Shown: in pieces, positions 1 through 31,178 of the stretch
Position numbering within the stretch: the first letter of the stretch is position 1
How the letters are laid out: each line of letters begins with the position of its first letter
Assembly: GCA_038087015.1 (NCBI GenBank)
Contig: JASBNA010000048.1
Location: forward strand, 186,001 to 250,000
Source of the DNA: Cerrena zonata
Lineage: Eukaryota; Basidiomycota; Agaricomycetes; Polyporales; Cerrenaceae
Direction: 5' to 3'
Length of the DNA: 64,000 nucleotides
Program-made: the position numbers and the translations under genes
Notes under the pieces: model-generated
The model's database searches: none
What the model saw: the letters and a program-made list of their open reading frames with translations, nothing else
Told to the model about the DNA's origin: nothing

Positions 1-35
1 TCGGAATCAAGACCCGGCAATTCGGAATCAAAACT

Positions 36-160
36 AACAAAACATCACCTGAGTCAGAATGACAAAACATCATCTGAGTCAGAGTGACAAGACATTATCT
101 GAGTCAGAATGACAAAACATCATCTGAGTCAGAGTGACAAGACATTACCTGAGTCAGAGT
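36..160 (+). repeat. 25-bp tandem array in 5' LTR (5 units)
   Basis: Five head-to-tail 25-bp units of the form (g/a)acaaaacatca.ctgagtcaga.t lie in the U3 part of the LTR. The 3' LTR has only three units (15719-15793). Each unit contains CTGAGTCAG, a palindrome around the AP-1-like core TGAGTCA, so the array may work as an upstream activating sequence. That role is inference. Confidence 0.85.
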
Positions 161-311
161 GATGTGTTTAAGGTTCATCATATCAAAGTATCAGGGACAA
201 ACAAGACAATAATATCAAAGACAGTATAGGAATACAAGGTTACCATGACAATATTTATCTGAAACATGTTTCAAGTCTGAAACATAGTTACCAAAAACTT
301 TAACTTTATTC

Positions 312-319
312 TATATAAG
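312..319 (+). promoter_or_regulatory. LTR TATA box
   Basis: TATATAAG stands in the 5' LTR and is conserved in the 3' LTR at 15945-15952. A second TATA-like stretch (CATAAATAGAGC, about 404-415) lies about 90 bp downstream. Either could position the start of the genomic RNA. Confidence 0.55.
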
Positions 320-920
320 TACATCTTTGTATTTTTACTTAGCAACAAGTGGAGTAGACACTTGTCACAACCTGATTGGCTAGAGAAAGGAGGCTTCCAA
401 AAAGCATAAATAGAGCCCCTCTCTTCCCTCTAAAAAAAAGAAGGTTGGAAGCAGTTTCCAAGCAAGCCTCTGAACTCCAGTATTTTTCCTGTATTTACCT
501 TTAGATTAAAGTAATCTAAAAGTGACTCACTAGAGCCTGTCTAGTAGTCTTCCCCTCTCAGTTATAAGTCAGTAAACTAGAGACAAAGTGTCTCTCTTGT
601 TTGTCAGTCATATTGTTCAGCGTTTAAGAGTCATATCCTGCTTTAAGTGGACATAAGTTTGTTCAGTTAAAGTCTTTATCCTTAGCTTTTATATTCCAGT
701 CTCTTTCCTAGTCCTAAACCCTTAAACTCTCCTATATTCTCCCTACTCTACCTACCCTATCTACTCTTTCACAACACACAAGTGGGCAAGTAGATAAAAA
801 CAATCCCAACTCAACGAACAACAGGGAATATTCGGTGTAACGTCTCACCCAAGATTTCTCTGCGAGGAAAGTTCGTATTTAGTCCTATATAGACTAATCA
901 CTTTCTGAGACCGACATCAG

Positions 921-938
921 TGGAGCCCACCGCGAGGG
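921..938 (+). other. Candidate tRNA primer-binding site
   Basis: TGGAGCCCACCGCGAGGG starts one base after the LTR's terminal CA and begins with TGG, complementary to a tRNA CCA 3' end. Position and start fit a minus-strand primer site. I cannot name the tRNA from sequence alone. Confidence 0.6.
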
Positions 939-974
939 ATTGGTTATCTACTTTAATTGTTGTGTTTCCTTTAT

Positions 975-3900
975 ATGACAGATTCAGATACAACCTCTAC
1001 TGTGTCTAGTCTCACAAATACTCCAGTAATACTTAACTCAATATCTAACTCTCCTCAACCTTATCTCCTTAACCCTTCAAGTAACATATCATCTACCTCT
1101 ACCACTCCTACTCAATCAACCTACTCACTTAAATCAAGTACTACAGCAACACCTACTAATAGCAGAAGATCAAGTAGCACTATGACAGCAATCAATCAAA
1201 CAGGAGTTCATCACTTACCTGTTCCTGGGACCAAGAGTGCCCCCAAAAAGTTCAAAGGAAAATTCTCTCAAGTCAAACTCTTCATCAAACATTACGAGAA
1301 GCTATGTGCTCAGAAGTTAGTTACTGATGAGGAAGAAAAAATTCAAAATATAACTCAGTACTGCTCTAGAAGTGTACGTGAGTTCATGGAAGGTTTACCA
1401 AGCTATTCTGGTAAGAATTGGGAAGTCTTTGTTCAAGATCTTCTAGAATACTTTGACGCCGAAAGATATACTAAGCGCTACAAACGTGGAGATCTAGAAG
1501 CGTATTGTAAGCGTATGAGACACAAGAAGTCAACAATGCGAATGCCACATTGGAAATCCTATAACAGGAAATTTATTCGTATTGCAGGATGGCTTGAGTC
1601 TCATAAGAAAATATCTGAGGATGAAAAAGATTTATATTTCTGGAAAGGTATACCTCAGGATTTCAGAGACAAGCTAGAAGCTCGTCTATTGGCTATATAT
1701 CCTGACCATGACCTAGAAAACCCATTCAAGACAGATAGTGTCTGCAAGGTAGCCAAGTCCCTTCTTCAGCGTAATCGGTTTGACAATGAGCGCACCTTAT
1801 CGGAGGATGAAACTGACTATGATAGCGATTCAGAGTCAGATGATGAAGAGGATGAGGATAACTCTGATTCTGATTGGGACACTGATCATGAGTCTGTCAA
1901 GAAACATAAATCTCGTCTAACTTCTAGGGATTCAAAGAAAGTCCGTTTCAAGCCCAGACTGAAAGAACACAAGGAAGTAGTCAAGTCTGAACCTAAAGCA
2001 ACAGAAAATAAAATTTCTGAGGACAAATCCAAGTCAAAGGAGGTAGAAGACTTAATTGATCAAATGAATCGTTTGTCTATTCATGATCAAAGCTACTCAT
2101 CACTGTATTATAGAGCATATAGTTTGGATCCCATGGTAGCCGATATCATGATGAAGCCTGTTGAACGTCAGCAAATAGCTCAGAGAGTATCAAGTCAAGC
2201 AGCCAATCGTGCAGCACCTGCTGCCAGCCCAGGTCCACCTCTATCTTTTAACCGTTCGCCTCCTCCACATTTAAAACCTGGAAATAATGCTTTCCAGCAA
2301 GCTCCTCTCAATCCAGAGGATCGCAGATGTTTTGGATGTGGAGGGACAGGACATACTATGTTCTTCTGTTCTAAGATAAGTGATCTGGTCACTAAAGGTA
2401 TTATCACTAAAGATAGTACAGGCAAATATATTATGGCTGATGGAACTTTTATTCGAAGAGCTACATTTGATGAACCTTTAATAGCTGCCATCGAAAGACT
2501 TCGACCCATTCAGAATCACTATATTTCAATAAGTCCAGCAAGAGTAGAGGATTATGAATCAGATTCCAGTGATTCAGAAGATGAAGACTCAGAGGAAAAT
2601 GTTTTTGTAGCTACACGTTCTTCAGCGAAGAACAATCAATTCAGAAAAACCACCTCTGAAAAAGTTTTCAACCCTTCTAGGAAAAAGCATGAAGAATCTC
2701 ATCCCAGGTTTGGAGATAAAAAGAAGACAGACAAGAAGGTTCAACCAGAAGAAATACTTCCAGTACCTACTAACCCTGTCCCAATTTCTGTGGATGACAC
2801 AATATTTAATCCTCAAGATGATGATGCTTTAATGGAAGATACTAGTGAAACTATTAAGCAAAAAGACCTTTCAGTGGTAGCAAAAAGGATCCCAAAACAG
2901 TCTGAAGTACAATCTCAGGTAGACCAGAGAAATGTTCTGAGTAGGATTTTAAATCAGCCAGTTACCCTAGCCATAGGAGAAGTGTTTGGGATTTCAAAAG
3001 AAATGACCTCAAATCTGAGAGAAGTTCTTAAACCCAAACCACCTTCAAAATTGATCTCAAACATACCTGAAATCCCAAAGGTTAATCTAGGTCAAGTAAA
3101 TCAGCCAATAGTTGCTGCAGCCATGGTATACAGAGCAAAAGAAACACTCATTAAATTGAAGATGGAATGTGAAGGTATGCCTATCACAGCAATTATAGAT
3201 ACAGGATCTCAACTAAACATTGCTCATAAAAATGTATGGAAAGAAGTCCTTTCAAGACCCTTGGATACCCAAAGCACAGTCAATATGAATGATGCTAATG
3301 GGGGAGCAAGTAAACTTAAGGGATTAGTTCCCAATGTACCTTTAATTTGTGGGGGAGTAAAGACCTTTGCAAGTTTGTATATTGGAGAGAAAGTACCTTT
3401 TGATTTATTATTAGGAAGACCCTGGCAAAGGGGAAATTTTGTTTCTATAGATGAAAGAGCTGATGGAACCTACCTCATATTCAAGGATCAAGAACTAAAT
3501 CCAAGGCATGAAATACTGGTCACCCCTGATGAACATTTAGTTGAGGATCCTAATATTGCAGACTTCTTACAGAAAGCTCGCAGTAATAGGTTCTATGCTC
3601 ACTCATATTTCATTGAGGAAGAACCAGAGGAAAATACATTGATAGAGACAACAGCATTTATTGAGGAAATACCTATCGAAAATACCGAAGAAATTCCCTC
3701 CATAATTCCAGAAAAGCGTAGTATAACACCGCCAGAAAATCCTCGACCTTCAACAAGATTAAGGACAGATGACTTAGGACGTGAAGAAATTGAGTTAGCA
3801 AGCAAATCTGAGAATCAGCAAGACGATGACTTACCTCCAGGACTAGAGTGGCCTACTACAAGTTTAGGTGTAGAACGTTTGAACCAATTGTGGTCCAGTA

Positions 3901-4814
3901 CAGAGGGAAACGTACCAAATAATAAAACCTGTGAAGAAGACTTAATACAAACCCGAGGGACCGAAGAAAGTACAGTATTTGACAAGCAGACCTTCAGTCC
4001 ATTAAAAAAGTTGAAGTTAGTGCAGGTACTTACAAAAACGAGTACATCAAAGTGGAGGGAGAAAATAAAATGGAAAGGGGACGAACCCCATCACCAGCGA
4101 GCGGTATCTAAATCCAAACGAAAACATAGTCCAGCAAGACTATTGGTGAAGGCCGTCGAGAATACCAGAATAAATCGATTTTGGGGCCTATTGAAACAGC
4201 TCCGCAGTTCTGACGACAATACAAGTGGATCTACACACAATATATCAAATGATAGGCACGTACCGAATAATGATGAGAACACACAAGACTCCGATGACTT
4301 ACCGGACATCTCAAACCAAGAAATCGAAAGTTCTAAAGGAAACAAAGTTGAGGAACAAAAAGCCCGACCAGAAGAACAAGAAAATGAATCGGGAAGATTA
4401 AGTTTCGAAGTTGATGCAGTTGGTGTTGATACGGGCAAAGGAAAAGCTGCGGGACCTAGTCAGATGTCTGAATTGATAAACTGCGGGAAGAAAGAAGCAG
4501 TAACAATAAGAGAAACGTCAGTGGGTAATGAGGAAAACGTCATAGAAAGCTTAACTACTCACCGAAAAGAGTATCGAATGGACAAAGTTCTCGGACAGCA
4601 GAGACCAGACGAAGTCATAGAACCACAAGATGATCAAGACGTAGCAAGATACCCCCTATTGGCAGAGAAAACATTACCAGCCAAGTTGAAAACCGAGAAC
4701 CAGAACACGTCAGAACAAGAGCAAGTGACGTCGATAGACTCATCACAAGACAGCGAGGGAGTTATTGAACAAGTACGCCAGACGCTCGAAGAGTTTAGCA
4801 TCCTAGAGGAATAG
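975..4814 (+). CDS. gag-pro: Gag-protease polyprotein
   Basis: This 1279-aa product is the structural and processing part of the retrotransposon. The first ATG in the frame is at 975; the frame opens slightly earlier at a TTG. The N-terminal ~75 residues are Ser/Thr rich. Residues ~80-260 look like a retrotransposon Gag domain, followed by an acidic Ser/Asp stretch. A CCHC zinc knuckle has Cys452, Cys455, His460 and Cys465. The aspartic protease has the catalytic DTGS at 742-745 and the second-strand LLLGRPW at 811-817. The last ~420 residues are polar and low in hydrophobics, with no recognised domain. The frame ends with a TAG and pol does not follow; it lies 6.7 kb downstream. That is unlike ordinary Ty3 elements, where pol overlaps or is fused. 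Confidence 0.93.
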   Translation: MTDSDTTSTVSSLTNTPVILNSISNSPQPYLLNPSSNISSTSTTPTQSTYSLKSSTTATPTNSRRSSSTMTAINQTGVHHLPVPGTKSAPKKFKGKFSQVKLFIKHYEKLCAQKLVTDEEEKIQNITQYCSRSVREFMEGLPSYSGKNWEVFVQDLLEYFDAERYTKRYKRGDLEAYCKRMRHKKSTMRMPHWKSYNRKFIRIAGWLESHKKISEDEKDLYFWKGIPQDFRDKLEARLLAIYPDHDLENPFKTDSVCKVAKSLLQRNRFDNERTLSEDETDYDSDSESDDEEDEDNSDSDWDTDHESVKKHKSRLTSRDSKKVRFKPRLKEHKEVVKSEPKATENKISEDKSKSKEVEDLIDQMNRLSIHDQSYSSLYYRAYSLDPMVADIMMKPVERQQIAQRVSSQAANRAAPAASPGPPLSFNRSPPPHLKPGNNAFQQAPLNPEDRRCFGCGGTGHTMFFCSKISDLVTKGIITKDSTGKYIMADGTFIRRATFDEPLIAAIERLRPIQNHYISISPARVEDYESDSSDSEDEDSEENVFVATRSSAKNNQFRKTTSEKVFNPSRKKHEESHPRFGDKKKTDKKVQPEEILPVPTNPVPISVDDTIFNPQDDDALMEDTSETIKQKDLSVVAKRIPKQSEVQSQVDQRNVLSRILNQPVTLAIGEVFGISKEMTSNLREVLKPKPPSKLISNIPEIPKVNLGQVNQPIVAAAMVYRAKETLIKLKMECEGMPITAIIDTGSQLNIAHKNVWKEVLSRPLDTQSTVNMNDANGGASKLKGLVPNVPLICGGVKTFASLYIGEKVPFDLLLGRPWQRGNFVSIDERADGTYLIFKDQELNPRHEILVTPDEHLVEDPNIADFLQKARSNRFYAHSYFIEEEPEENTLIETTAFIEEIPIENTEEIPSIIPEKRSITPPENPRPSTRLRTDDLGREEIELASKSENQQDDDLPPGLEWPTTSLGVERLNQLWSSTEGNVPNNKTCEEDLIQTRGTEESTVFDKQTFSPLKKLKLVQVLTKTSTSKWREKIKWKGDEPHHQRAVSKSKRKHSPARLLVKAVENTRINRFWGLLKQLRSSDDNTSGSTHNISNDRHVPNNDENTQDSDDLPDISNQEIESSKGNKVEEQKARPEEQENESGRLSFEVDAVGVDTGKGKAAGPSQMSELINCGKKEAVTIRETSVGNEENVIESLTTHRKEYRMDKVLGQQRPDEVIEPQDDQDVARYPLLAEKTLPAKLKTENQNTSEQEQVTSIDSSQDSEGVIEQVRQTLEEFSILEE

Positions 4815-4832
4815 CAACTACAGGGGAATCAG

Positions 4833-4839
4833 TATAAAA
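4833..4839 (+). promoter_or_regulatory. TATA box of internal accessory gene
   Basis: TATAAAA lies about 110 bp upstream of the ATG at 4950 and just past the gag-pro stop. It suggests an internal promoter separate from the LTR. Only 135 bp separate the two reading frames. Confidence 0.5.
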
Positions 4840-4949
4840 GGGAGAGGGAAAAGTCAGTACAGAAACCAGAACCACAGCGCAATTGTCTAACCTACCCTTC
4901 AAATCACTCACCACACTTTAACTATAAACCTCTATCGCTATATAGCAAT

Positions 4950-7051
4950 ATGGTCGGTATGTCTCCACGTAAAGAATACTCACCTGATGTCATGGTCTTC
5001 GACGACGGAAGGATTGACATCAACCGTGTCTTCTTCGTCGACGAAGTCTTCGCTCGTGTCCAGGACTCGAAGTCCTTCGAGGCCTTAGCTCCTATAGGCG
5101 AAATATCACTCGGTATGAGTGATGTCGAGTTCGTCCAAGAAGTTATAGGCGAATTGGACCAGTCTCGTCGAGAAGACCCAAAGTTCCTAGTCAACATTAG
5201 TACACGGAAGATACTGAAGATCAAATTACCTCGAAGTGTACCCGAAGGTACTATGAACTTCATTACGAACGAGGCCACCGTCGCAACCTTCTTCCCGGGA
5301 GTCGATCGAGTACCGAACGTGGGCCTTTACCAGGCTACGATCCAGCTCATCCCTCGGCAAGATAAGTTCGCGTGGGAGGGATGTCAGATGTTGATGAGGG
5401 AAGATATGTACGAGGGAAGCGATGAGGAGGTCGACAGTGAGAAGGCAAGTACGAAGGTAATTAGAAAAACAAAGTCTAACGTTCTTATCAAATTCACTCA
5501 CCGAGATCGACAGGCTTCCGATCCGGGCGATCACGATCGACGGGACGGAGTTCAGGAACCGCAGATCTCGGGATCTTCAGAAGCTTCTGACTCCACTTCG
5601 AGCATGCCGATCACACCACGTGGATCTGAAAGCCCGAAACCGCCGGGTATGCTAGTGGATGACGCAATCGACAGCAACCGCAGGACATCTGGTGACAATA
5701 ACGGAAGTGAGTATGATGCCGATACCGAATCCCTCCCCGAGTATGAGTTTGCTGATCATCATCTTATATGGTCTACAGATCCAAACCATAATCCCTCGGT
5801 CGAACAACTCGAAAACGGATCGAAGAAAGGTGCGGTACGTCCTGACGACGTACACATTATTGAAGAATTATTAGGTCTAGGACAATATTCTTCTCCTACT
5901 ACTCTGTTCGCTTCGGGGATCCCTCACCCGAATCCCTTCCTTGTTCATGACAGGGAAACTTTCCATTCGGTCGATTGTCCCTTGTTACCCTTCAAGAAAT
6001 CTCACCAGGTTATTCCTCGTCCTCCTACACCACACCCCACGCCTGCGTGTAAAGGATGTAACCCTGACCGTAAGTCGATCTATTTTTACTTCCCTCAGTT
6101 AATTGACGTCGATGTGGGAATGTTACAGACAGTAGTATTCCAAATGGGACCTCTCAAACTGATAAGATATTAGATTCTATCATGGAGGATCTCAAGAACC
6201 TCTCAGTCGAAAACACGAAGAACTCTACTACACAAGATACCGCTGATCGACTTGCTACCAACGTAGAGTTCGATCCTGACCTTAGGAACTCGAACAAGTC
6301 GCGTCGACTTCAGCCAGGACCGCTATATGTAGTCCCAGGGAGTCCTAGTAAGCATTCTGTCTACCAGAATCAAACGATATCGACTGATCAATTTATTATG
6401 CTGTCTCTCTTTAATATCCCAGCCTCAAATCCTGACAAACGAGACGCACGACTAGTCAAAACTCCAGAAGACTTATTACCTCCCGATATCGGCGTCGCCT
6501 TTCGAATCTTTATCGACAATAACCGGGACATACGGCTAGAGGATTATACCCTCTGGCTACGATTTGTTCACGTATTCCTCTTCAAGGTCGCTATCGAAAT
6601 CTGTAACCAGGAAGGACGCATTTCTTACTTGGAAAAGAACACAACATTCTGGGCAATGTGGAAGGAATGTCCGAGGATGCTCAAATATGTCAACCCCGTC
6701 GAATGTGATTCTCCATTCGATCTGGTCCACAACGTCTATCTTTTCCCTTCGGAGCGAAGAAGCATTCAACAATGTCTTGACTTCATCGATTCTATCGACG
6801 ATCTGGACTGTGATAGCGACCTAGGAATCGCCTACCTCGTCTTAAACCATCTGTTGAATTATCGTCCCAGTCCATCTAAAGCTGCCGGCCTTAACGATCG
6901 ACGACTTAATGGTGAATTCGGTCATCCCGGGGAGTATCCACCCCCTCCTGGATTCAGTGAGTCCCCACCACTTTCCCCTCGTTCCGATTGTTCCACCGAA
7001 CCTTTTGTGTTGGACGACGACGATCTAACAGAGTTTCCAGACTCGTATTGA
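4950..7051 (+). CDS. Accessory protein of the retrotransposon, 680 aa, one intron, function unknown
   Basis: Two apparently separate ORFs (4950-6173 and 6182-7051) become one frame when a 59-nt intron (6070-6128) is removed. It has a GTAAGT donor, a TTAATTGAC branch-like site and a TTACAG acceptor. The exons (1120 and 923 nt) give 680 aa. Residues 1-150 are compact and mixed, about 160-260 acidic and Ser rich, and a PACKGCNPD stretch lies at the splice junction. The C-terminal part (~430-600) holds a hydrophobic, probably helical region, and the end is Pro rich and acidic. I do not recognise a family; it is neither an env-like glycoprotein (no signal peptide or membrane anchor seen) nor part of pol. 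A TATA box lies 110 bp upstream. A sense intron would be lost from any spliced genomic RNA that was reverse-transcribed, so its presence implies a separate transcript or recent acquisition. Confidence 0.75.
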
Positions 7052-8811
7052 GGGTCGCAAAAGTTTATTCATATCGACCCCACCCTCGATACCAACGTCC
7101 TTGGTGGAAACGACTTTATTCAAGTATTATTCGCAAACCTATTTTCTCGGCGATCCTTATTTCTATTCTAGCCAATTTCCGCGATATTTCTTCGGCCATC
7201 ACACCAGCATTCTCCTTTATTTCATCGTTCACAAATTCTTCCATGCCTCAATCCACATCCCTCGTACCTTCGAACGACCTCAAAATCTTCGTCCTCCCTT
7301 GGGTAATCCCTCATGAAATAGTCCGTACTCTCGTCAATTCACACCCTTATCCTATGGACAATCTCACCGTTTCAACTCTTGGCTAAAGTCTCGCGTGACT
7401 TTGATCCAATGAATACAACACAGAATAAACAATTTTATTCGTGTTTAATTCAACTTTTTTCGTTTCTTCTTTCTAACAGCATCACCATAGTACATACCAA
7501 AGAGGACATATTTTATGACCGATGTGGAATGGAACCTTCGACTCCCGACTCACATTTTTCCATCCAATTTCGTTCCCTCGAAGTATTGGATCGTTTCTTT
7601 CGTATTCTTTCTGTTTTGTTTTGTTTTTCGCTTTATTTCCTTTGACGATCTCGACTATGAATTAATTTGACTTAAAGACAATCTTTCTTCGTCTCTCAAC
7701 CTGTTTTTACTTTTGTTCTTTTCTTTCTTTCCGTGCTTTTTATGTTTCTCAACTTATGACTTATATTCGACATTTTTTTAGACCTTCTTTGCATATTTTT
7801 CTATTTGATTGGACTTTGTTCTATGCTTACGACGTAGTATCGATAGTTTGATGCACACGTGGACTTTATTCAGTGAATAGACACTTCATTTTGGTTGTAA
7901 CATCGACTCAGAAAAATGAGTGACTTACCAACCAAACTAAAATACAAGATCGAAAACGAAAAAGCGATATCGGTTGTAGACATGTTTGACGATTTTCTTT
8001 TATTTCCTCGCTTTTCTTTTCTTTCTTTTCTCTTATGACGTTCATACTTGTATGTTCATATTTTATTTCGTGTGCATTTTATTTACTGCACTACTGATTG
8101 GCCCATCGCGTAACACGAGATCGAATCCCTTCAATCCCTTTATTTTAGGACTACTAGACCAACGACCAGGTCTATTGACAAGACCTTTAGTTCGAATCCG
8201 GGAAGTCGTATTACTTTTCTCTAAAAGTACGACCTCTGTTAGTTGTCGGTTCGAATACTCGACGGCACAGTTTGTTTTGTCATAATTCTCAAAAAGTCGG
8301 ACCGCACTTCGGGTTATTTAGACCGTCAGTTCAAATCCCCCAAGTGACTTTTGTTTAAATTTACCCACAGTTTCGGAAGCTTTTGCGGAAAACTCCGAAC
8401 GTCAAAGTTGAGTTTGACTCGAGTCAAGGACACGTTCCATCGCGTGTCATCTGTAACACGTCATCGAGCGTTAAATTTGCAGCATCAGTCCGCCGACGTG
8501 GCAGTTCGAATCCTTGACAGAGCAAAACATTGCTTTTAACCTAGTGGCAGGATCGAGACCAGGATGTTACGATATTCGCTGGTTAATACAAAATACAATC
8601 GCGGTTGGTAATTACGAATCCATAGGGCTATTTCAAAACCCCCGACAATACAAGATATAATCAAGAAATAAACGTCCAGAAAATGGTAGCGATAAAGTCC
8701 AATTTAACAAAAAGTCGGTAACGAGAAAATATGACAAGATGAAGATTTCGTGAGAGCAAGAAAGAGGTCGAGAGTAAAACATCAAGAAAAGCAATGACAG
8801 GTATTGCAAAG
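7052..8811. other. Accessory-region spacer with tRNA B-box-like motifs
   Basis: These 1.76 kb lie between the 3' ends of the converging sense gene and the first antisense gene. The + strand is pyrimidine rich around 7400-8080. ORFs here are short and in T-rich low-complexity sequence, and I do not accept any. Between 8119 and 8515 five motifs resemble the tRNA B box (GTTCGAATCC type) at about 8121, 8191, 8251, 8331 and 8505. Confidence 0.5.
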
Positions 8812-9644
8812 TCAATCAAAAAGTAACTCGTGCCTAAATACAAAGAATCCTCGTCAAGAAATGGTTATAACAATGTCAAAAATTACGTACCCCTTCAGGA
8901 ATGTTGGCCGCAGCCTCCGCAGGTATTTCGATGATATAAAAGAAAGCTGCATACAACTGACAATATATCAGCAAATTATTTACAAAATAAATCGAAGAGA
9001 GAACATACCTCTGGATAGGTAATGGGATCGATAAAAATGACAATTCGACTGGGAGTACAACGCAGACGCATTAGATTGGCTTGAATAATGCGGTAGGTTC
9101 GACTCCATTTGGTCAGATCGTCATCCACGTTTTGGACAACTTTGGCCCGGGCTTCAATATTGTCGATAGACATGTACGACCAATACTGAATATTTCCAAG
9201 CGTATACAGTAAAGGAGGACAGCGAGTTTTGTCAACGTAGTTGTTAAGCACATCCAAAAAGATAATTTGGAGTGCTTTTTCGAATACACCCAGGATGACA
9301 AATTCGACAAAGTCTGAAGTCGCGAAGTGAACCCCAACAATCCAACCCCTGAGAGAGTAGAGGGATGGTTCCCTAATGAATTCAGGATCAGGAACACCTG
9401 CTATACGCAACCAAATTCTATCGTTAAATCCAATGAACGGATGATCCACGAAGGGACGGAAAAGACCAATGCGATGAGGGAATTGAAGCGGATTCTTGCT
9501 ACGATACATAAATTCCCCCTCGATTATGATCCCTGGGACCTGATCTAAATTGTCAGAAGAATATTCGAGGTTTGGTACTTCGGGAGGAGGTTCGGGATAA
9601 TAGTGCGCGAGACCAGAGGCCTGAAGAAGTCGGTGCCCTAACAT
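8812..9644 (-). CDS. Antisense accessory protein A, 237 aa, three exons
   Basis: The gene runs against the retrotransposon. Exons are 9644-9009, 8946-8891 and 8833-8812. The introns (62 and 57 nt) have GTATGT...GCAG and GTACGT...TTAG borders, in phases 0 and 2. The ATG at 9644 was chosen because the frame further upstream has no ATG before a stop at 9702-9704; an extra 5' exon reaching 9856 is possible. The protein shows no signal peptide or known domain. Motifs shared with the paralog at 10256-11081 include GVF..(R/A)LQI and an A.....VD..(L/M)..WSR stretch near the C-terminus. The pair clearly arose by duplication. Function is unknown. Identical exon architecture in two diverged copies argues for real, selected genes rather than chance ORFs. 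Confidence 0.72.
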
Positions 9645-10255
9645 TATAGAAGATGGGAGTCGAATGACAAGAAGAAACAAGTTGTCGACAGCCAAGTCAC
9701 ACTATATATTAGAACAAGAAGACTCACTGGTAAGCGGGATCTTGATCGGACGGGTTGTCGTAATCCGCTTGCGAACAAAGAAGGACCGGATATTCGGCCA
9801 GAAAACCCCATCCTATTTCCGACATAAATCAAATTCGAGGCACCAGATGCTTGCAAGCCAATAGGTATCAGTCAGAACAAGAAATACGTTCACTGCCAAG
9901 ACCATAAAAAGTGTTATCCTATGTTCATCGATATGTTCTAAAATTAACTTGACATCGTGGATTAAAGTTAAAGCTATTTCTATCCTCGGAGAACAAGTCT
10001 AATTACAACAAAAAAAAAACTCTTTTTGCATCACACAGCAATTCAGAAATAGTGCATGCCTTGCAGTTTCTGAACAAAAGACAGAAAATCTCATAGCAAC
10101 ACCATATAAATTGAAGTCCGCTCAGAAAGCAAAAAGATTGGTACAAGTACAATCGATCCAAGAAACCTAACGGGATGTTTGACCCTTGTATACTGTTACA
10201 AACTGGGATACAGGTAAACTTTGGGAGCCCAAGAAAAACCAGCAATAGCAGGCAA
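9645..10255. other. Spacer between the two antisense genes
   Basis: This should hold the promoter of antisense gene A and the 3' flank of gene B. A frame at 9856-9735 on the minus strand could be an additional 5' exon of gene A, but the implied intron (26 nt, 9734-9702 region) is too short to trust. No other feature is seen; an A9 run lies at about 10011-10019. Confidence 0.4.
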
Positions 10256-11081
10256 TTAAAAAGTCAACTTATCCCTACAAATAATGAATATCAGCAAAAA
10301 ATACCTTAAAGAAAACCTTGGTGATCGTACGACTACCGAATCTCCGAAAAACTCCTATTAAAAGATTAATTATTGTTCAAATCTAAAATGGGAAATCATT
10401 TCTTACCGAGGAAATAGAGGTTAAGACAGAACCCATCTGCAAAAGTTCTGACGTCCCCAGAATATGTGTCTCCATTCCACGAAGAGCAGGAAGACCGGTC
10501 TTGACAAATCTAGACCAGTTGGACATAATAGAATCCACCAAAGGAAGAAGTGCGGATGCACGGGCTTTGTAAGAATGATAGGGTAGGAATACCCATTTCG
10601 GATGACCATTTTCCCATTGAATCAATTGAGGGAGAATTTTGTGGTCAATACGACGTCGTAAGGATACCAAGTAGAAGATCTGGAGACGGCCTCGAAAGAC
10701 CCCGACCATGGTAAAGGTAATGCGGACGGGATTTGCATCGGCAACTCTAACAACAAAACACTCGATTTCTCTGGACTTGTCCCTTCGGAGAGAGGTTGAA
10801 GGATTGTCATCAGGCAGCACCAAGACTAAGGACAGACCCAACTTCAATATAGGGACCACTTTTGTCAAAGGGTCCACCTGAAAGAAGTGAGGTCCAAGGT
10901 TATCTTTGGCGCGGCGATAGAAGTAGATGGGCAGAAACACCCTATCATTGATGATTTGATGGGACTTGAAGCGATTGAGAGAGAGTTCAAATCGAGAGGA
11001 TACTTGATGTCTTTCAATCAGTTCAAACTGATCTGAGACGGGTGAAGTCGATTTGGTACCACAGCAGCAAAAGAATGGCAT
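10256..11081 (-). CDS. Antisense accessory protein B, 247 aa, three exons
   Basis: Exons are 11081-10407, 10354-10305 and 10274-10256. The introns are 52 nt (GTAAGA...ATAG) and 30 nt (GTATTT...GTAG, with an internal CTGAT branch-like site), in phases 0 and 2 exactly as in gene A. Both genes end in a tiny third exon (19 versus 22 nt) of similar sequence. The protein starts MPFFCCCG and has GVF.GRLQIFYL near residue 150. No known domain, signal peptide or membrane segment is evident. The ATG at 11081 is the first in the frame; the ORF opens further upstream only at a TTG. The 30-nt intron is unusually short, but the paralog supports it. It is transcribed divergently from pol. Confidence 0.72.
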
Positions 11082-11558
11082 AGTGGAATTCGGCAGTAAG
11101 GGAGAGTTAAAGTAAAAGCACGTAGCAGTGGTTTTAGAAGAGATGACTGAAGTCGAAGGCAAGAATGCACGGTAACAACTATTGTGCGCTAATCAAAATT
11201 CCATCGGCAAAAAGAGAGCATTTCAAATAGGACCCACAAGAAATCGAAGGGCCCAGTAGAGCACTGGCCAGCTACATTCCCATCAGAAAAGTCCTTGATG
11301 TCATTTGTTTCTAAACCTGTACCTGAAAAGTGAGGCAGCAGATACATGAGTTGTTGACCAGGCGATTTGTATGTATTCTCAGCACTCTATATACCCTGTT
11401 CACCTTATGCTCGAAAGAGTGACAAGCATACAACAATCCTAACAACTTACGTACCTGCATATCTCAATCAACACATTTAACCCTTTCCCTCAACAACACA
11501 CTAATTGATTCAAACCCCAAGCAAACTACTATTATCATTTGATTTCACTAGACCAAAT
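11082..11558. promoter_or_regulatory. Divergent intergenic region between antisense gene B and pol
   Basis: About 480 bp separate the two ATGs, which point away from each other. A TATATA stretch at about 11388-11393 lies 170 bp upstream of the pol ATG. With gag-pro ending 6.7 kb upstream, pol probably depends on this internal promoter or on splicing from the LTR transcript. I cannot decide which. Confidence 0.45.
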
Positions 11559-14500
11559 ATGGAGCAAAAATGTAACGCCCATCAATTCCGTCAGAACAAA
11601 CTTATCCATCTAGTTAGGGAATCTCCGAAGCGAGTTGATCCGAATGAACCACTTCAATGCATCTATGCGTACCTGGAAAGCGATGACGACATTATTATAG
11701 AAATGTCAAGTACAGTCAATACTGCTTACAAACGAGTGGACAAAAAGATCAAACCAGTCCCAGGAGTGTTTCCAGAAGAATCACGAGTACATAGACGATT
11801 TCCAGAAGACCCTTTGAAAAGTCTTCCTCCGTTAACCCAACAACCTCCAGAGTTTAAAAGCAATGGGAGACTAACCAAAGAACGTTTAGAGAAATTGAAT
11901 ATAAACTCTGACAAATTCTTATGGCCAGAAGAGGAGAAGTTGTTCTCTCATATACTTCAACTTAACCAGCATACCTTGGTATTTGAAGAAGATGAAAGAG
12001 GAACCTTTCGAGAAGACTATTTCACGCCGTATATAATCCCAACCATACCTCATGTCCCATGGGCATTCCAGAACATACCTATTCCTCCAGGATTAAGAGA
12101 ACAAGTTGTAGACTTACTGAAAGAAAAGATGGCAGCAGGAGTTTATGAACCAAGCCAATCCTCATATCGATTGCGTTGGTTCTGTGTCCTGAAAAAGAAT
12201 GGCAAACTGCGAATTGTACATGATTTACAACCACTCAATGCCGTATCTATTCGAGACGCTGGTTTACCCCCTATTTTAGATGCATTTGTAGAACCCTTTG
12301 CTGGACGTCAGTGTTACACAGCATTCGATCTACACTGGGGATTTGATGCTAGAAAAATACATCCAAAAAGTAGAGACCTGACAGCGTTCATGTCTCCTCT
12401 AGGATTGCTTAGACTGACATCACTCCCTATGGGATTTACAAATTCACCTGCTGAATTTCAAGCTACCATGGCTTTTATCCTCAAAGATGAGATGCCTCAC
12501 AAAGCTGATATATTCATTGATGACCTACCAATCAAAGGGCCAGTAACCATTTACCCTGATAAAGATGGAAAGCCTGAAGTTCTGAAAGATAATCCTGGTA
12601 TTCGACGATTTATTTGGGAACATGCTTGTGACGTTCATCGTATAATGCATAGAGTTGGACATGCAGGAGGAACATTCTCTCCATCTAAAATTCAATTAGC
12701 ACGAAGAGAAGTAATTATTTTGGGACAAAAATGTTCACCAGAAGGAAGATCACCAGACCCTGCAAAGGTAGATAAAGTCAAGAACTGGCCACCATTGAAG
12801 ACACCCAAGAATGTTCGAGAATTCTTAGGACTATGTGGGACCGTTAGAATCTGGATTAAGGACTATTCCAGCAGAGCTCGTCCACTAACAGAATTAATTC
12901 GACATGGAACTATCTTCGAATGAGATGAACGAAGACAAGCTGCCTTTGAAGACCTCAAGAGTGCTATAACTTCAGCTCCTGTACTCAGACCTATTGACTA
13001 CACATCAGACAATCCCCTGGTGATGTCAGTAGATACAAGCAAGATTGCAGTAGGATTTATACTATCCCAAAAAGATGAAAAAGGAAGAAAGCACCCAGCA
13101 CGTTATGGTTCGATTCCTATGAACGAAAGAGAAGCAAGATATTCTCAACCCAAATTAGAATTGTATGGCCTATTTAGAGCGCTACGTGCTTTTCGTCTCT
13201 ATTTGGTAGGAGCCAAGAAATTAGAAGTCGAGGTGGATGCTAAGTATATCAAGGGTATGCTTAAAGAACCTGATTTGCAACCCAATGCATCTATCAACAG
13301 ATGGATTCAGGGAATACTCTTATTCGATTTTGACCTAATACACGTACCAGCAGACAAACATAGAGGACCAGATGCATTGTCACGAAGAGAGCTAGGAGAT
13401 GGGGAAGAAATTGAGGACTTTGATGACAGCTGGCTAGATGAGGTGGCTTTATTTATAAGTGACCCCCAGGCCATTTCTGATTATCATTGTAATCCTTTCC
13501 AAATAATTCCTTCATACCTAGTCTCTGACTCACCTCAAGATAAAGTAATGCATCAGATCAAAGAATATCTCATGACAAGAAAACTCCCTGAGTATATGAA
13601 CAATCAGCAGAAACAAAGACTTGTGACCAGAAGTAAAAAGTTTGTGATCAGAAAAGGAGAGCTATTCAAGCGAAATGGATTGAAACCACCATTAAAAGCT
13701 ATCTTTTCTCTTAATCAGAGACTTGAAATCCTAAAGGCAGCACATGAAAAACTAGGACATAGAGGAGAACAGGCAGTAATGAAAACACTACAGCTGCGTT
13801 TTTACTGGCCAAATATGTGGAAAGATGCCCAACATCATGTTCGTTCATGCCATGAATGTCAACTTCGAAGCACAAGAAAAGTTGAAGTCCCACTAAAAGT
13901 ATCATTTCCTAGTACACTGTTCACTAAAATATATGTGGATATAATGTATATGGAAAAAGGTATGGGATTCCAATATATTGTAGCAGCAAGAGATGATTTA
14001 TCACGAGTATCAGAAGGACGAGCACTGAGAAACATTAAAGCTAAAACACTTGCTTTATTTTTCTGGGAAGAAATTATCTGTCGATATGGAGCTGTTGGAC
14101 AGGTAGTCACAGATAATGGTTCAGAAGTGCAAGAGGCCTTTTCTGAATTAACAAGAAGATATGGAATTCCCCATATTCGAATTTCCCCTTATAATTCCAA
14201 GGCAAATGGCGTAGTCGAACGCGGACATTTTATAATTCGAGAATCCATAATGAAAACTTGCCAAGACAAACCAAAACAGTGGCCAATACATGTCAGACAT
14301 GCCTTCTTTGCTGACAAAATCACTATCAATCGATCAACTGGGACATCACCATTCTATCTTTTACATGGAGTTCATCCTGTCCTTCCATTTGATTTAATTG
14401 AAGCTACTGCAATGGTTGATGGATTCTATTCCGGAATGCCTACATCAGAGTTATTGGCACTGAGAATGCGCCAGCTAGAGAAAAGACCAGAAGACTTAGA

Positions 14501-14954
14501 GAGAGCTGCAGAATTATTGGCAAAAACCAGAATCAATTCTAAAGAAAGATTTGAAAAGAAGTTCAAAAGAAGACTATTCACAGAAAACCACAAAAAGGGA
14601 ACCCTGGTATTAGTACGCAATACCACTATAGAAAAATCCATGAACCGTAAAAGTAAACAACGATATTTAGGACCATTCGAAGTCGTACGGAGAACTCAAG
14701 GAGGATCATATATTCTCAAAGAATTAGACGGATCGATATGGAGTCAAAAGGTGGCAGCTTTTCGTATTTTGCCTTATATCCTCAGAGACGATAAACGATT
14801 AAAGGAGTTAAAGAGACATAAACCAGACGTACCTCCAGAACCCCAAGTTATAGATGAATGGAAAGAAGACAATAACGAAGATGAATCAGACAATGACGAA
14901 ACTGATTTGTTCTTTGACAGTGAAGAAGAAATCAGCCCTGAACAAGAATTCTGA
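11559..14954 (+). pseudogene. pol: Pol polyprotein (RT, RNase H, integrase) with one in-frame TGA
   Basis: The first ATG is at 11559. Reverse transcriptase: catalytic Asp257 in an AFDL motif, the LP.GF.NSP motif, and FIDD at 319-322 (the YxDD box with Phe). A TGA at 12921-12923 (codon 455) interrupts the linker between RT and RNase H, where Ty3/gypsy proteins usually have Trp. The same frame then continues to 14954. RNase H follows (SVDTS, KLELYG, EVDAKY). Integrase has an HHCC zinc finger (from about 13741) and a DDE triad with Asp codons at 13938 and 14112 and Glu at 14217. Its C-terminal GPF module is YLGPFEVV; there is no chromodomain. Domain order is Ty3/gypsy. Only one lesion is seen, so the break is recent, or the stop is read through. 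Confidence 0.92.
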
Positions 14955-15658
14955 CCCACAAGGAATGATCACAGACAAAAGCACATATATGACAACAGAA
15001 ATTTCGCGATTAAGAGAACGTATAAGGACGATTAGATTCTGCTCCAAAATGCTTCTGGTGGGCATTAGGAGAAAAGAGAGACTGACCAGAATATTCAACT
15101 GGAATATTACTGGTGAAAGTGATACAGTAACTGGTCAAGCTACTTCTGGTGGGTAGACTTGATGAACGATAACTGGCCAAGATATTCATCTGGAATATTA
15201 TTGGTGAACGCAACGTACCTGAAGAACTGGTCAAGCTACTTGCAATAAGTAGACTTGATGAAAGATAAATTGCCAAAGTATTTAAACAAAAAAAAAAATA
15301 ATTTGGTAAACACGACGTATTAACCTGTCTGTGTACATGCCTTAGGAAAATGAATTCGATCAAGAACATCCTGTTATAATCTCATCCCCTTTCCAAGTCA
15401 AGTAAGCAACTGGGGACAGTTGCAATTTCAAGTGACCCCCACATGTCCTGCATGAAAATGGTTTCATGCATGAACATAACAGCAAGAGACTCACTATCAA
15501 TCCTCAAAGAGAATATTATTCTTGATAATATTTAATTATCAAATATGGATTTTACATTACAGAAGTCAACCCTAGACTTATCTGTGAAGACAGTAGCTGG
15601 AAACTGGTACTGCAGATCTCTAATGATGGGACTTTACTACTCTCACAACAAGAACCAG
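14955..15658 (+). other. Element 3' untranslated region up to the 3' LTR
   Basis: No coding region is seen. It holds an imperfect tandem duplication (15081-15267), an A10 run near 15290 and an AT-rich hairpin-like stretch (about 15509-15543). A clear polypurine tract is not obvious; the A-rich purine stretch just before 15659 is a weak candidate. Confidence 0.5.
15081..15267 (+). repeat. Imperfect ~93-bp tandem duplication
   Basis: Two copies, 15081-15171 and 15172-15267, share the blocks (g/a)atattca.ctggaatatta.tggtgaa, actggtcaagctact and gtagacttgatgaa. They lie in the 3' untranslated part of the retrotransposon. Confidence 0.7.
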
Positions 15659-16548
15659 TGTTTCGGAACCAAGAACCATTACTTCGGAATCAAGACCCGG
15701 CAAATCGGAATCAAAACTAACAAAACATCATCTGAGTCAGAGTGACAAGACATTATCTGAGTCAGAGTGACAAAACATTACCTGAGTCAGAGTGATGTGT
15801 TTAAGGTTCATCATATCAAAGTATCAGAGACAAACAAGACAATGATATCAAAGACAGTATAGGAATACAAGGTTACCATGACAATATTTATCTGAAACAT
15901 GTTTCAAGTCTGAAACATAGTTACCAAAAACTTTAACTTTATTCTATATAAGTACATCTTTGTATTTTACTTAGCAACAAGTGGAGTAGACACTTGTCGC
16001 AACCTGATTGGCTAGAGAAAGGAGGCCTCCAAAAAGCATAAATAGAGCCCCTCTCTTCCCTCTAAGCAAGAAGGTTGGAAGCAGTTTCCAAGCAAGCCTC
16101 TGAACTCCAGTATTTTTCCTGTATTTACCTTTAGATTAAAGTAATCTAAAGTGACTCACTAGAACCTGTCTAGTAGTCTTCCCCTCTCAGTTATAAGTCA
16201 GTAAACTAGAGACAAAGTGTCTCTCTTGTTTGTCAGTCGTATCGTTCAGCATTTAAGAGTCGTATCCTGCTTTAAGTGGACATAAGTTTGTTCAGTTAAA
16301 GTCTTTATCCTTTGATTTTATATTCCAGTATCTTTCCTAGTTCTAAACCCTTAAACTCTCCTATATTCTCCCTACTCTACCTACCTTATCTACTCTTTCA
16401 CAACACACAAGCGGGCAAGTAGATAAAAACAATCCCAACTCAACGAACAACAGGGAATATTCGGTGTAACGTCTCACCCAAGATTTCTCTGCGAGGAAAG
16501 TTCGTATTTAGTCCTATATAGACTAATCACTTTCTGAGACCGACATCG
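15659..16548 (+). repeat. 3' LTR
   Basis: 15684-16547 matches bases 1-918 of the 5' LTR. The start at 15659 (TGTTTCGG) is inferred from the TG rule, because the left copy is cut by the window. The last base reads G where the 5' copy has the terminal A. It contains three 25-bp units (15719-15793) against five in the 5' copy. It directly abuts a Helitron-like coding fragment, so that fragment was probably the insertion target. Confidence 0.88.
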
Positions 16549-17106
16549 GCTATGACAGATGCTGTCTTGATCAAAGCCTATGTGCATCGTTGTGGCGTCC
16601 ACTGTAAGCGCAAGTCCACAGGTGACTGCCGTGGTCGCTTTCCTCGTGAGTTGTGTGAGCAATCAACATTCGACGACATCGGAGCTCTCCGACTTGCTCA
16701 CAGAGAGGAGTGGCTTAACACATTCACAAGGGACCTTGCTTATTTACTGTGCTGTAATTCTGACACGGCATGTTTGCTTTCTGGTACCCAGGTCCGGGCT
16801 ATCATTGCTTACGTCACCGATTACATGACTAAATGCCAACTAAAGATGTACACCCTCTTTGGTGTTATCAGAGCAGTCATGGAAAAAAATGCGGATCTTG
16901 TTAGTGAACAGGATGACAAAATGGTTGCTGCTCAGAGACTGCTCACAAAGGTGGTCAATGCTCTAAACGCAAAAATGGAGACCGGGGGCCCTATGTTGTG
17001 TGCCTCACTACTTGGATTCCCCGACCATTACACTAGTCACTCTTTTAAGCTCTTTTTTTGGTATCCTTATCTACGCTTCGTTGCTAACGTCTGGAACATG
17101 CACTAG
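16549..17106 (+). pseudogene. Helitron helicase-like N-terminal region fragment
   Basis: An open frame of 184 aa begins right after the LTR. Hallmarks of the Helitron_like_N region of fungal Rep/helicases are HRC...C....CR.RFPRE, EEWLNTF, (L)LCCN.D....LSG.Q, YVTDYMTK and LLGFPDHYTSHSFK..FW..Y. In a full protein (over 1300 aa) this would be an internal segment, so the Rep nuclease and the Pif1-type helicase parts are missing. The 5' side is cut by the LTR and the 3' side by the KDZ element. The frame stops inside the ACTAGT target duplication. It is a relic and not expected to function. Confidence 0.8.
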
Positions 17107-17394: not shown

Positions 17395-17935
17395 GCTTAT
17401 TATCTTCAGTTTACACTCAACATAATCAATAGTCTTAGAGTGTGTATAAGTTATATATTGTTTCAATCATTCATTATGATTCATCTACCCTCAATATAAC
17501 CATTGGTCTTAGTATATGTAAGCTGTATATTTCTCTCCACCACTCATTATATTCAGTCTATACTCAATATAATGAATGGTCTCAGCTTGCATAAATAATA
17601 TCTTTTTCCCCACCACTCATTATATTTGCCTTATACTCATATAATCAATGGTCCTAGGGTGTACAAATAATATATCTCTGTTCATCACTCATTATGTTCT
17701 TCCCACCCTCAATATAACCATTGGTCTTAGTATGTGTAAGCTATATATTTCTCTCCACCACTCATTATATTGGCCTACACTCAATATAATAAATGGTCTT
17801 AGTATATATAACTTGTATATTTCTTTTCATCATTTATTATATCTAATTCATACTTATTATAACCAATGACCATAGCCTCTGAATATAATATATTTCTATT
17901 CATCACTTATCATATTGAGCCTATACTCAATGTGA
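17395..17935 (+). repeat. ~73-bp tandem array inside the left TIR
   Basis: About seven degenerate units share (c)caccactcattat, actcaatataa..aatggtct and a following tag...gt...taatatat stretch. The mirror copy is at about 30351-30891. Subterminal arrays of this kind often hold transposase binding sites; here that is inference. Confidence 0.75.
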
Positions 17936-18033: not shown

Positions 18034-18483
18034 ACCTGGACCTCACACATCCCTTATCTTACAAGCCTTATCGATCATGCCATCAAACTAGCTTATTAGG
18101 CCCCAAAAGCCCTCTGCACGCATAGTCGCAATATCTTGTGTATTTTCGAATCCCTTGCCTTCTATAGTAACGTCCTCTGGAGCTGTTTTGGGCAAGCCAG
18201 AAGTGATCCAGTTGAGACAAAACATAGCCATCAAACATATGAGATATGATCGGGAGTCCAGACTGCCGGCCCATCAACGTCCACATGTGTGAGTTACTCC
18301 GCCATGCTCCCGCCCGTTCCATGCGTCCGCGCCCTATTCCCCGCCCGCCCCATCACTCATTGGTGCTTGCTCGCCGGCGCTTCGACTTCCCCGCCGCCCT
18401 ACCCTTCCACATCGCATAACTCCCTCGTAACTCAACGGTTTCGCACGATATTATGTGCGTTCGAAAGCGGCTTGCTTACATAG

Positions 18484-29773: not shown

Positions 29774-31178
29774 ATATAAGTAAGCCGCTTTTGAACGCAT
29801 ATAATATCGCGCGAAACGGTTGAGTTACGAGGGAGTTATGCGATGTGGAAGGGTAGGGCGGCGGGGAAGTCGAAGCGCCGGCGAGCAAGCACCAATGAGT
29901 GATGGGGCGGGCGGGGAATAGGGTGCGGACGCGTGGAACGGGCGGGGAATAGGGTGCGGACGCGTGGAACGGGCGGGAGCATGGCGGAATAACTCACACA
30001 TGTGGACGTTGATGGGCCGGCAGTCTGGACTCCCGATCATATCTCATATGTTTGATGGCTATGTTTTGTCTCAACCGGATCACTTCTGGCTTGCCCAAAA
30101 CAGCTCCAGAGGACGTTACTATAGAAGGCAAGGGATTCGAAAATACACAAGATATTGCGACTATGCGTGCAGAGGGCTTTTGGGGCCTAATAAGCTAGTT
30201 TGATGGCATGATCGATAAGGCTTGTAAGATAAGGGATGTGTGAGGTCCAGGTGCCACAGCCATCCACTCCAGGGCCACCTACCCAATTTAGAAAGTATAC
30301 ATGTGGCTGTGGAACCAGATTTGTAAGCAGAAAGAGGTGAGCCTGCCAATTCACATTGAGTATAGGCTCAATATGATAAGTGATGAATAGAAATATATTA
30401 TATTCAGAGGCTATGGTCATTGGTTATAATAAGTATGAATTAGATATAATAAATGATGAAAAGAAATATACAAGTTATATATACTAAGACCATTTATTAT
30501 ATTGAGTGTAGGCCAATATAATGAGTGGTGGAGAGAAATATATAGCTTACACATACTAAGACCAATGGTTATATTGAGGGTGGGAAGAACATAATGAGTG
30601 ATGAACAGAGATATATTATTTGTACACCCTAGGACCATTGATTATATGAGTATAAGGCAAATATAATGAGTGGTGGGGAAAAAGATATTATTTATGCAAG
30701 CTGAGACCATTCATTATATTGAGTATAGACTGAATATAATGAGTGGTGGAGAGAAATATACAGCTTACATATACTAAGACCAATGGTTATATTGAGGGTA
30801 GATGAATCATAATGAATGATTGAAACAATATATAACTTATACACACTCTAAGACCATTGATTATGTTGAGTGTAAACTGAAGATAATAAGCCACCATAAA
30901 GGTATCATAATATATATATCACAAGATCATACATTATACATAGTATATTTAGACATAATGTCTGGTCTTATTGTCTACATAATGTATCAATCTATTGGCC
31001 ATACATTATATTGCAAGATTTAGATTCATAATATATGGTCTATAGATATGTATATCAGTGATCAGTGATTATGAATCTTATATATATCTGTGACCTATAT
31101 GTTATCTATCATGACTCATGATTATCCATACGAACCTTTGCCAATACTATGGCAATATTATACATAATCCTGTCAGCT
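29774..31178 (-). repeat. Right terminal inverted repeat of KDZ element
   Basis: Reverse complement of 17108-18483 with few substitutions. It is longer because of a 31-bp tandem duplication (29911-29941 and 29942-29972, gcggggaataggg...) that the left TIR has once. ACTAGT follows at 31179-31184. Confidence 0.92.
30253..30352 (-). repeat. 100-bp shared block, copy in right KDZ TIR
   Basis: Reverse complement of 17934-18033; see that entry for the other copies. Confidence 0.9.

Follow-up and report, generated by a model that had tools for sequence, protein, structure and literature searches.

A conserved gene block with a Gag-related sense gene and an antisense pair separates gag-pro from pol in Ty3/gypsy elements of Cerrena zonata

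What is the origin, and what could be the role, of three genes that lie where a Ty3/gypsy retrotransposon usually passes directly from gag to pol? The question is raised by an element of 16.8 kb in Cerrena zonata, a polypore that decays wood. It lies in the stretch of 64,000 nucleotides (nt) analysed here (the window), which is C48:186001–250000, C48 being the contig of the window in an assembly of 55.5 Mb and 171 contigs. C-numbers below denote contigs or element loci of this same assembly, and C21, C21b and C21c are distinct elements. In the window element gag-pro and pol are 6.7 kb apart, and the order from 5′ to 3′ is gag-pro, a sense gene S, the antisense pair A and B, then pol. This order, the frames and the coordinates of the block (4815–11558) had been proposed in a sequence-only reading of the window and were confirmed. 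The structure of the block and its conservation are solid, and it is very probable that the block belongs to the elements of one clade, in which it has been inherited and conserved. The features are listed below; all introns in S, A and B are predictions.

1–918, plus strand: left long terminal repeat (LTR), which begins at C48:185761, 240 bp 5′ of the window
917–940, plus strand: stretch TCAGTGGAGCCCACCGCGAGGG directly 3′ of the left LTR, read by eye
975–4814, plus strand: gag-pro frame, with DUF4100, a zinc knuckle seen by eye and a weak retroviral-type protease
4815–11558: the block, with sense S and antisense A and B, from reading frames
4833–4840, plus strand: TATA box TATAAAAG 5′ of S, at −117 from the S start codon (ATG); also in C37 and C21b
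4950–7051, plus strand: gene S, exons 4950–6069 and 6129–7051, 680 amino acids (aa), predicted intron, Gag C-terminal module
6961–7386, plus strand: candidate sense frame X, containing RPWW and a hydrophobic segment
8899–9644, minus strand: gene A, exon 1 9644–9009, short predicted exon 2, end approximate
10320–11081, minus strand: gene B, paralog of A, exon 1 11081–10407, short predicted exon 2, end approximate
11559–14954, plus strand: pol (reverse transcriptase (RT), RNase H, integrase), in-frame stop at 12921–12923
15444–16547, plus strand: right LTR, from comparison with the left LTR

One explanation of such a block would be a single event peculiar to the window copy, either an insertion of host genes or the debris of a nested element. 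Nested insertions do exist in the C21 and C4 copies of this family, and in the C21 copy another element is inserted between A (364392) and B (342655). The explanation is nevertheless refuted, and we give it practically no weight: S, A and B were matched in all four located copies of the window family (C48, C21, C157 and C4, with B cut by the contig end in C157), and two further families, C16 and C37, have the identical order gag-S-A-B-pol. The sequence-only reading had named absence of the block from all other family copies as the sign of a one-off event, and this outcome did not arise. The window-family pol was found at three of the four copies. All five frames are open in the C16 element, and the C37 element has a gag with one stop. 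The LTRs of C16 are 99.7% alike over 1086 bp and are accompanied by a CCGT target duplication, which indicates that the block moved together with the element; those of C37 are 99.4% alike over the 691 bp covered. Older remnants bearing A and B are found on C1 and C32.

The three genes had been taken together as an accessory cassette. This description suits A and B, which look added, and does not suit S, which corresponds to the C-terminal module of Gag in sister families. A profile built on the C-terminal ends of four S proteins (from the C48 type, P0007, C16 and C37) matched two of 45 proteins at an expect value (E) ≤ 0.001, in each case at the end of the protein: the C11-family Gag of 2,011 aa (P0017, E 1.1e-15) and, more weakly, a Gag from Pleurotus ostreatoroseus (P0026, E 9e-4). 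An N-terminal S profile also matched P0017 (E 1.4e-3). The end of the C8 Gag frame was identified as the S module with a domain E of 3.9e-8, against a whole-sequence E of 0.092 for the reversed-sequence control. A genome search with C37 S returned C50, C2, C14, C21c and C11 at E 1.5e-12 to 5.1e-5, the module being found in frames of 2014, 2111 and 2017 aa in C50, C2 and C14, respectively. In the long Gags the homologous segment sits past the protease motif. Judged by this homology, S is not a captured gene but the C-terminal module of Gag, which in sister families closes a Gag frame of about 2,000 aa. It forms a separate reading frame in the C48 and C16 families, and the gag frame continues into S in C37 and C21b. 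Gag relatives themselves are numerous, with 45 at E ≤ 1e-10 that include proteins from Pleurotus, Fomitopsis, Phlebiopsis, Tricholomella, Irpex, Trametes and Rhodofomes.

The S proteins are strongly diverged: identity to window S is 31% for the C16 family and 24% for the C37 family. A protein search with S gave two matches, one from Cerrena and P0007 (47%). The searches for protein relatives of S and of A/B depend on shared 5-residue words, so that a failure to find relatives elsewhere is weak evidence. The exon junction of window S recurs in the S protein deposited for the C21 copy (P0006). No known fold or family was matched by S, A or B. With regard to a membrane-spanning protein, the mark of env-like genes, a hydropathy scan gave highest 19-residue values of 1.5 for S, 1.9 for A, 1.8 for B and 1.5 for X. 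Frames that may correspond to X, also bearing RPWW and a hydrophobic segment, are located just past S at L019 and L021, which makes three families with the window's, and their frame relative to S is variable; between C48 and C4 the changes in X by codon position are 6/10/19, with an excess at third positions.

How S varies was revealed by two pairs of elements. C37 and C21b have LTRs that are 98.6% identical over 961 bp and pol proteins identical at 631 of 636 residues. Their gag products are 99% identical over residues 1–800, 78% over 800–1000 and 43% over 1000–1300, and S is identical at 523 of 796 positions. (C21b has lost most of A, the whole of B and part of RT.) The C11 and C21c elements show the same pattern, with 629 of 632 identical residues in pol and 254 of 366 in the S part. 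Across both mosaic pairs, pol is thus 99.2–99.5% identical and S 66–69%. S and the Gag tail make up a hypervariable segment, in which elements differ that are nearly identical elsewhere. The pattern is best accounted for if elements have exchanged old versions of S that selection had maintained.

Could S instead be a structural component? It is acidic, with 106 D+E against 70 K+R, and appears to be mostly without predicted order (mean predicted local distance difference test score, pLDDT, of 36 for the model). A knuckle-like CX2CX4HX4C motif was noted by eye in S of C37 and C21b. These properties, together with the location of S within the Gag frame of sister families, would suit an extra particle protein (a scaffold, surface or RNA-binding component) that is fused to Gag in most families and made separately here for reasons of dose. 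The divergence would then stem from loose constraint or from adaptation to factors of the host, with ordinary template switching as the source of the mosaics. The knuckle-like motif was, however, not seen by eye in C48 S, and loose constraint does not fit the ratio of nonsynonymous to synonymous rates (dN/dS) of 0.11 calculated for S between C37 and C21b (dS 2.1). A structural S is a serious contender, to which we assign somewhat less than an even chance. The selection estimates here and below were made by NG86 in ten comparisons, of which seven were saturated, and the ratio given for each gene comes from a single comparison.

The antisense genes A and B start at 9644 and 11081, respectively, and the deposited models for C21 A (P0002) and window B (P0004) both consist of a long exon 1 and a short exon 2. 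The two proteins are related (E 9e-8 in one comparison), and a genome search with A also picked up four B genes, with E from 3.3e-6 to 7.6e-4; by this similarity A and B are diverged duplicates. Neither A (P0002, P0005) nor B (P0004) had a Pfam match at E ≤ 5, TRP28 (PF04195) included, and the pair is therefore distinct from the TRP28 domain of the plant element Retand. A protein search with a combined A and B profile gave five matches, three from Cerrena along with P0003 (52%) and P0005 (53%). A lone C16-type stretch of about 1.8 kb, in which the A frame is open, is found on C26 (L052:5008–6797). No match to gag, B or pol was found in the 9.5 kb covered at this locus, and the stretch may be a fragment or a retained stand-alone copy.

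Comparison of A between C16 and C26 gave dS 0.90, dN 0.044 and dN/dS 0.05, with changes by codon position of 16/9/74. For B, compared between C48 and C16, dN/dS was 0.19 at a dS of 2.0, which is near saturation. By these ratios both genes are under purifying selection. Together with the value for S and the relatives found at other loci, the ratios speak against S, A and B being chance frames. These values bear on a different explanation, in which it is the RNA that matters: antisense transcription over S and A/B would generate double-stranded RNA or interfere with the sense transcript, and the A and B frames would be by-products. Dual roles of antisense have been discussed for plant elements in the part of the source available (PMC7264820), and the DNA 5′ of A is as conserved between C16 and C26 as exon 1 (84.2 versus 84.4%), despite the dS of 0.90 in A. 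The codon-position pattern of A and the low ratios of both genes argue against the frames being by-products, as does the persistence of protein similarity where DNA similarity is mostly gone, and we consider this explanation improbable.

Whether the pair was acquired once was addressed with trees. The pol tree comprised 23 of 30 pol loci (L022–L051, with L041, L043, L045–L047, L050 and L051 left out), and its labels are partly assumed: C50a was labelled by closeness of its pol, within the 'gag2200' group S was demonstrated for C8 alone, and C21b was labelled as A/B type though most of its pair is lost. The six A/B-type rows form one clade (support 100/99), recovered in 98% of bootstrap trees; families whose Gag frame is long fall outside it. 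Genome searches with A and B gave no matches inside the C2, C11, C14, C21c, C50 and C8 elements, and in C21c, where S and pol are less than 2 kb apart, no A/B frame is present between them. The gag tree comprised 36 of 44 proteins (P0008–P0051), the criterion being an LLGRPW motif beyond residue 450. Eight short-tail Gags, two of them from Cerrena families, form a clade adjoining P0017 (100 in a Shimodaira–Hasegawa-like approximate likelihood ratio test, quick method). Tail length alone proves nothing, since short tails are also found elsewhere in this tree. A and B look to have been gained once, in one clade of giant basidiomycete Ty3/gypsy elements. In the simplest history, the Gag-S fusion would have come first, a stop (C48) or a frame change (C16) would later have arisen before S, and A/B would have been gained a single time.

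Each expression unit had been suggested to possess its own promoter, and the motif TATAWA was looked for within 300 nt upstream of S, A, B and pol. The suggestion holds in part for S, with a TATA box in two of three families, and for A, in C48 and C37; it fails for B and is inconsistent for pol. In C48 the sequence TCAGTATAAAA is located 5′ of S at −117, in C37 at −129, and it is also found in C21b; in C37 and C21b it sits inside the continuous gag-S frame. Under a first-order model of the block, 5% of 110-nt stretches are expected to contain TATAWA and 0.3% to contain TATAAAAG. Upstream of A the motif is found at −64 in C48 and −48 in C37, and in C16 only at −290. None was found upstream of B in the three families. 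Upstream of pol it is at −171 in C48, −145 in C21c and −20 in C16, and absent in C37. Expression of pol by a simple frameshift from gag is impossible here, as 6.7 kb and two opposed genes intervene.

A possible model for S is offered by Ty1, a Copia-type element. The p22/p18 protein of Ty1 is made from a transcript starting inside GAG (PMC8458377) and controls copy number (PMC4599808), and in mosaic Ty1 elements gag has been swapped, the breakpoints being close to the gag frame and the gag type deciding restriction (PMC7055915); these and the other published systems are compared on the parts of the sources available. The Cerrena elements share with Ty1 a C-terminal Gag piece, in their case with a candidate internal start, and mosaics that differ in gag while LTR and pol are near-identical (PMC8458377, PMC7055915). 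S has an ATG of its own, and a restricting function is proposed for it by analogy, unlike the case of p22/p18. By this analogy S would be transcribed from a promoter internal to the element and would bind Gag of its own type, thereby tuning or blocking particle assembly. The type of S would decide which elements restrict one another, so that S would work like p22 without kinship to it, and pol would be made from RNA of its own. A and B would be expressed from antisense transcripts and could act as regulatory or host-countering proteins, and their antisense orientation would allow their introns to survive passage through the genomic RNA.

A Gag-directed, type-specific regulator is, on this analogy, our first choice for S, with a structural role close behind. 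A and B are most likely regulators. Taken jointly, the structural account of the block and S as a Gag-directed factor appear about as apt to be right as wrong. A role of S in restriction, argued from Ty1, is doubtful. The full scenario, in which a Gag C-terminus has turned into a separately transcribed, hypervariable self-recognition factor with swapped alleles and own-type restriction, accompanied by an antisense pair that regulates or shields the element, is a shade more doubtful still.

Several observations weigh against S as a Ty1-like regulator and A and B as maintained proteins, besides the conservation 5′ of A described above. The parallel with p22 concerns expression and mosaicism only, S being situated after the protease and the Ty1 piece being capsid. 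In C16 there is no TATAWA within the 300 nt 5′ of S, where TTAAAAG is found instead, and the TATA sequences of C37 and C21b could persist as codons. The window family is without excess divergence in S, which in C48 is 98.8% identical to that of C21 and 98.3% to that of C157. As to descent from Gag, the N-terminal S profile had no match on the C8 piece, for which the reversed sequence gave E 0.076, and the Pleurotus matches are weak. Between C48 and C4 there are 10 synonymous and 20 nonsynonymous changes in A, 13 and 20 with 2 stops in B, and 82 and 88 with 8 stops in S, and the gag and pol frames also contain stops; this pair shows decay, not selection.

Another accessory protein that shares gag coding is CERV of the Caenorhabditis elegans element Cer1 (PMC10309623). 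CERV is a product of splicing, and genomic RNA depends on it for export, whereas S is a C-terminal module.

In plant elements and in Boty of Botrytis, the extra antisense genes on record lie between pol and the 3′ LTR (PMC7264820, PMC8365987, PMC11963269). Those of the plant Gypsy elements Grande (gene23), RIRE2 and Retand are likewise retained across copies and families; an antisense promoter of its own has been reported for Grande, and the function of these genes is unexplained in the accounts available (PMC7264820, PMC11963269). The Cerrena elements resemble the aORF-3R elements (Grande, Retand and the brtn-bearing elements) in having a conserved antisense gene, but A and B are located upstream of pol and not between pol and the 3′ LTR, and they form a duplicated pair, unlike the antisense genes of Grande, RIRE2 and Retand. 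Boty and BcGypsy1 of Botrytis are, like the present elements, fungal LTR elements with an antisense gene, brtn (PMC7264820, PMC8365987); brtn lies between pol and the 3′ LTR (PMC7264820), and A/B are set apart from it by position.

The usual Ty3/gypsy layout, with gag and pol adjacent, fused or overlapping, is not seen in the window element. This layout is usual and not strict, and the sequence-only statement that gag and pol are adjacent in known elements was too strong, since Burro, a giant planarian Gypsy element, has an env-like region in frame between them (PMC6431247). Burro resembles the Cerrena elements in its great length and in extra coding between gag and pol; the Cerrena block differs in being made up of separate genes, which lie on both strands. 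The literature examined, which excludes most subscription papers, contained no account of antisense genes located between gag and pol, and in a survey of fungal LTR elements (PMC3248453) a word search gave neither 'antisense' nor 'additional orf'. Antisense accessory genes of LTR elements are known and unexplained; here they look to be the product of a single gain and stand beside a Gag-derived protein that varies sharply between near-identical elements. These elements could allow two questions to be tested, namely what the antisense proteins of retroelements do and whether pieces of Gag have given rise to self-restriction in elements other than Ty1.

The gag-pro frame is open over 957–4814, with its ATG at 975 and its stop ending at 4814. 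In Pfam searches DUF4100 was matched at 28.9 bits (cutoff 27.9), and the protease models score under their cutoffs. The pol domains are arranged RT–RNase H–integrase, as in Ty3/gypsy: RVT_1 (E 2.3e-6) scores 27.9 bits, slightly below its cutoff of 29.6, and is followed by RT_RNaseH_2 (E 2e-20), Integrase_H2C2 (1e-16) and rve (7e-10). No chromodomain, the mark of chromoviruses, was matched at the integrase end at E ≤ 0.1, a search that divergent ones could escape. The in-frame stop splits pol of the window copy into frames 11505–12923 and 12924–14954; the C21 copy is open at this position.

The LTRs are of the TG...CA type (TGTCC...CGACA in C16). Directly downstream of the left LTR, TCAGTGGAGCCCACCGCGAGGG is identical by eye upstream of gag in C48, C16 and C37 and is the probable primer binding site. 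The two LTRs of the window copy are 93.6% identical (1158 columns, 20 mismatches, 5 gap openings), no matching target duplication was found at the two ends (CCGC versus TCGG), and the right LTR shares 99.9% identity with its left counterpart in the C157 copy. On these grounds the window copy may be a recombinant of two insertions.

Directly past the 3′ LTR, at 16525–17103 of the window, a frame resembles a Helitron-type protein by eye, with no Pfam match at E ≤ 0.1. A 138-nt repeat is present in three copies at 17494–17921, with a spacing of 145 nt. Further downstream, inverted repeats at 18286–18481 and 29774–30000 are 93–95% complementary and about 11.3–11.6 kb apart, and are possibly the ends of a DNA transposon.

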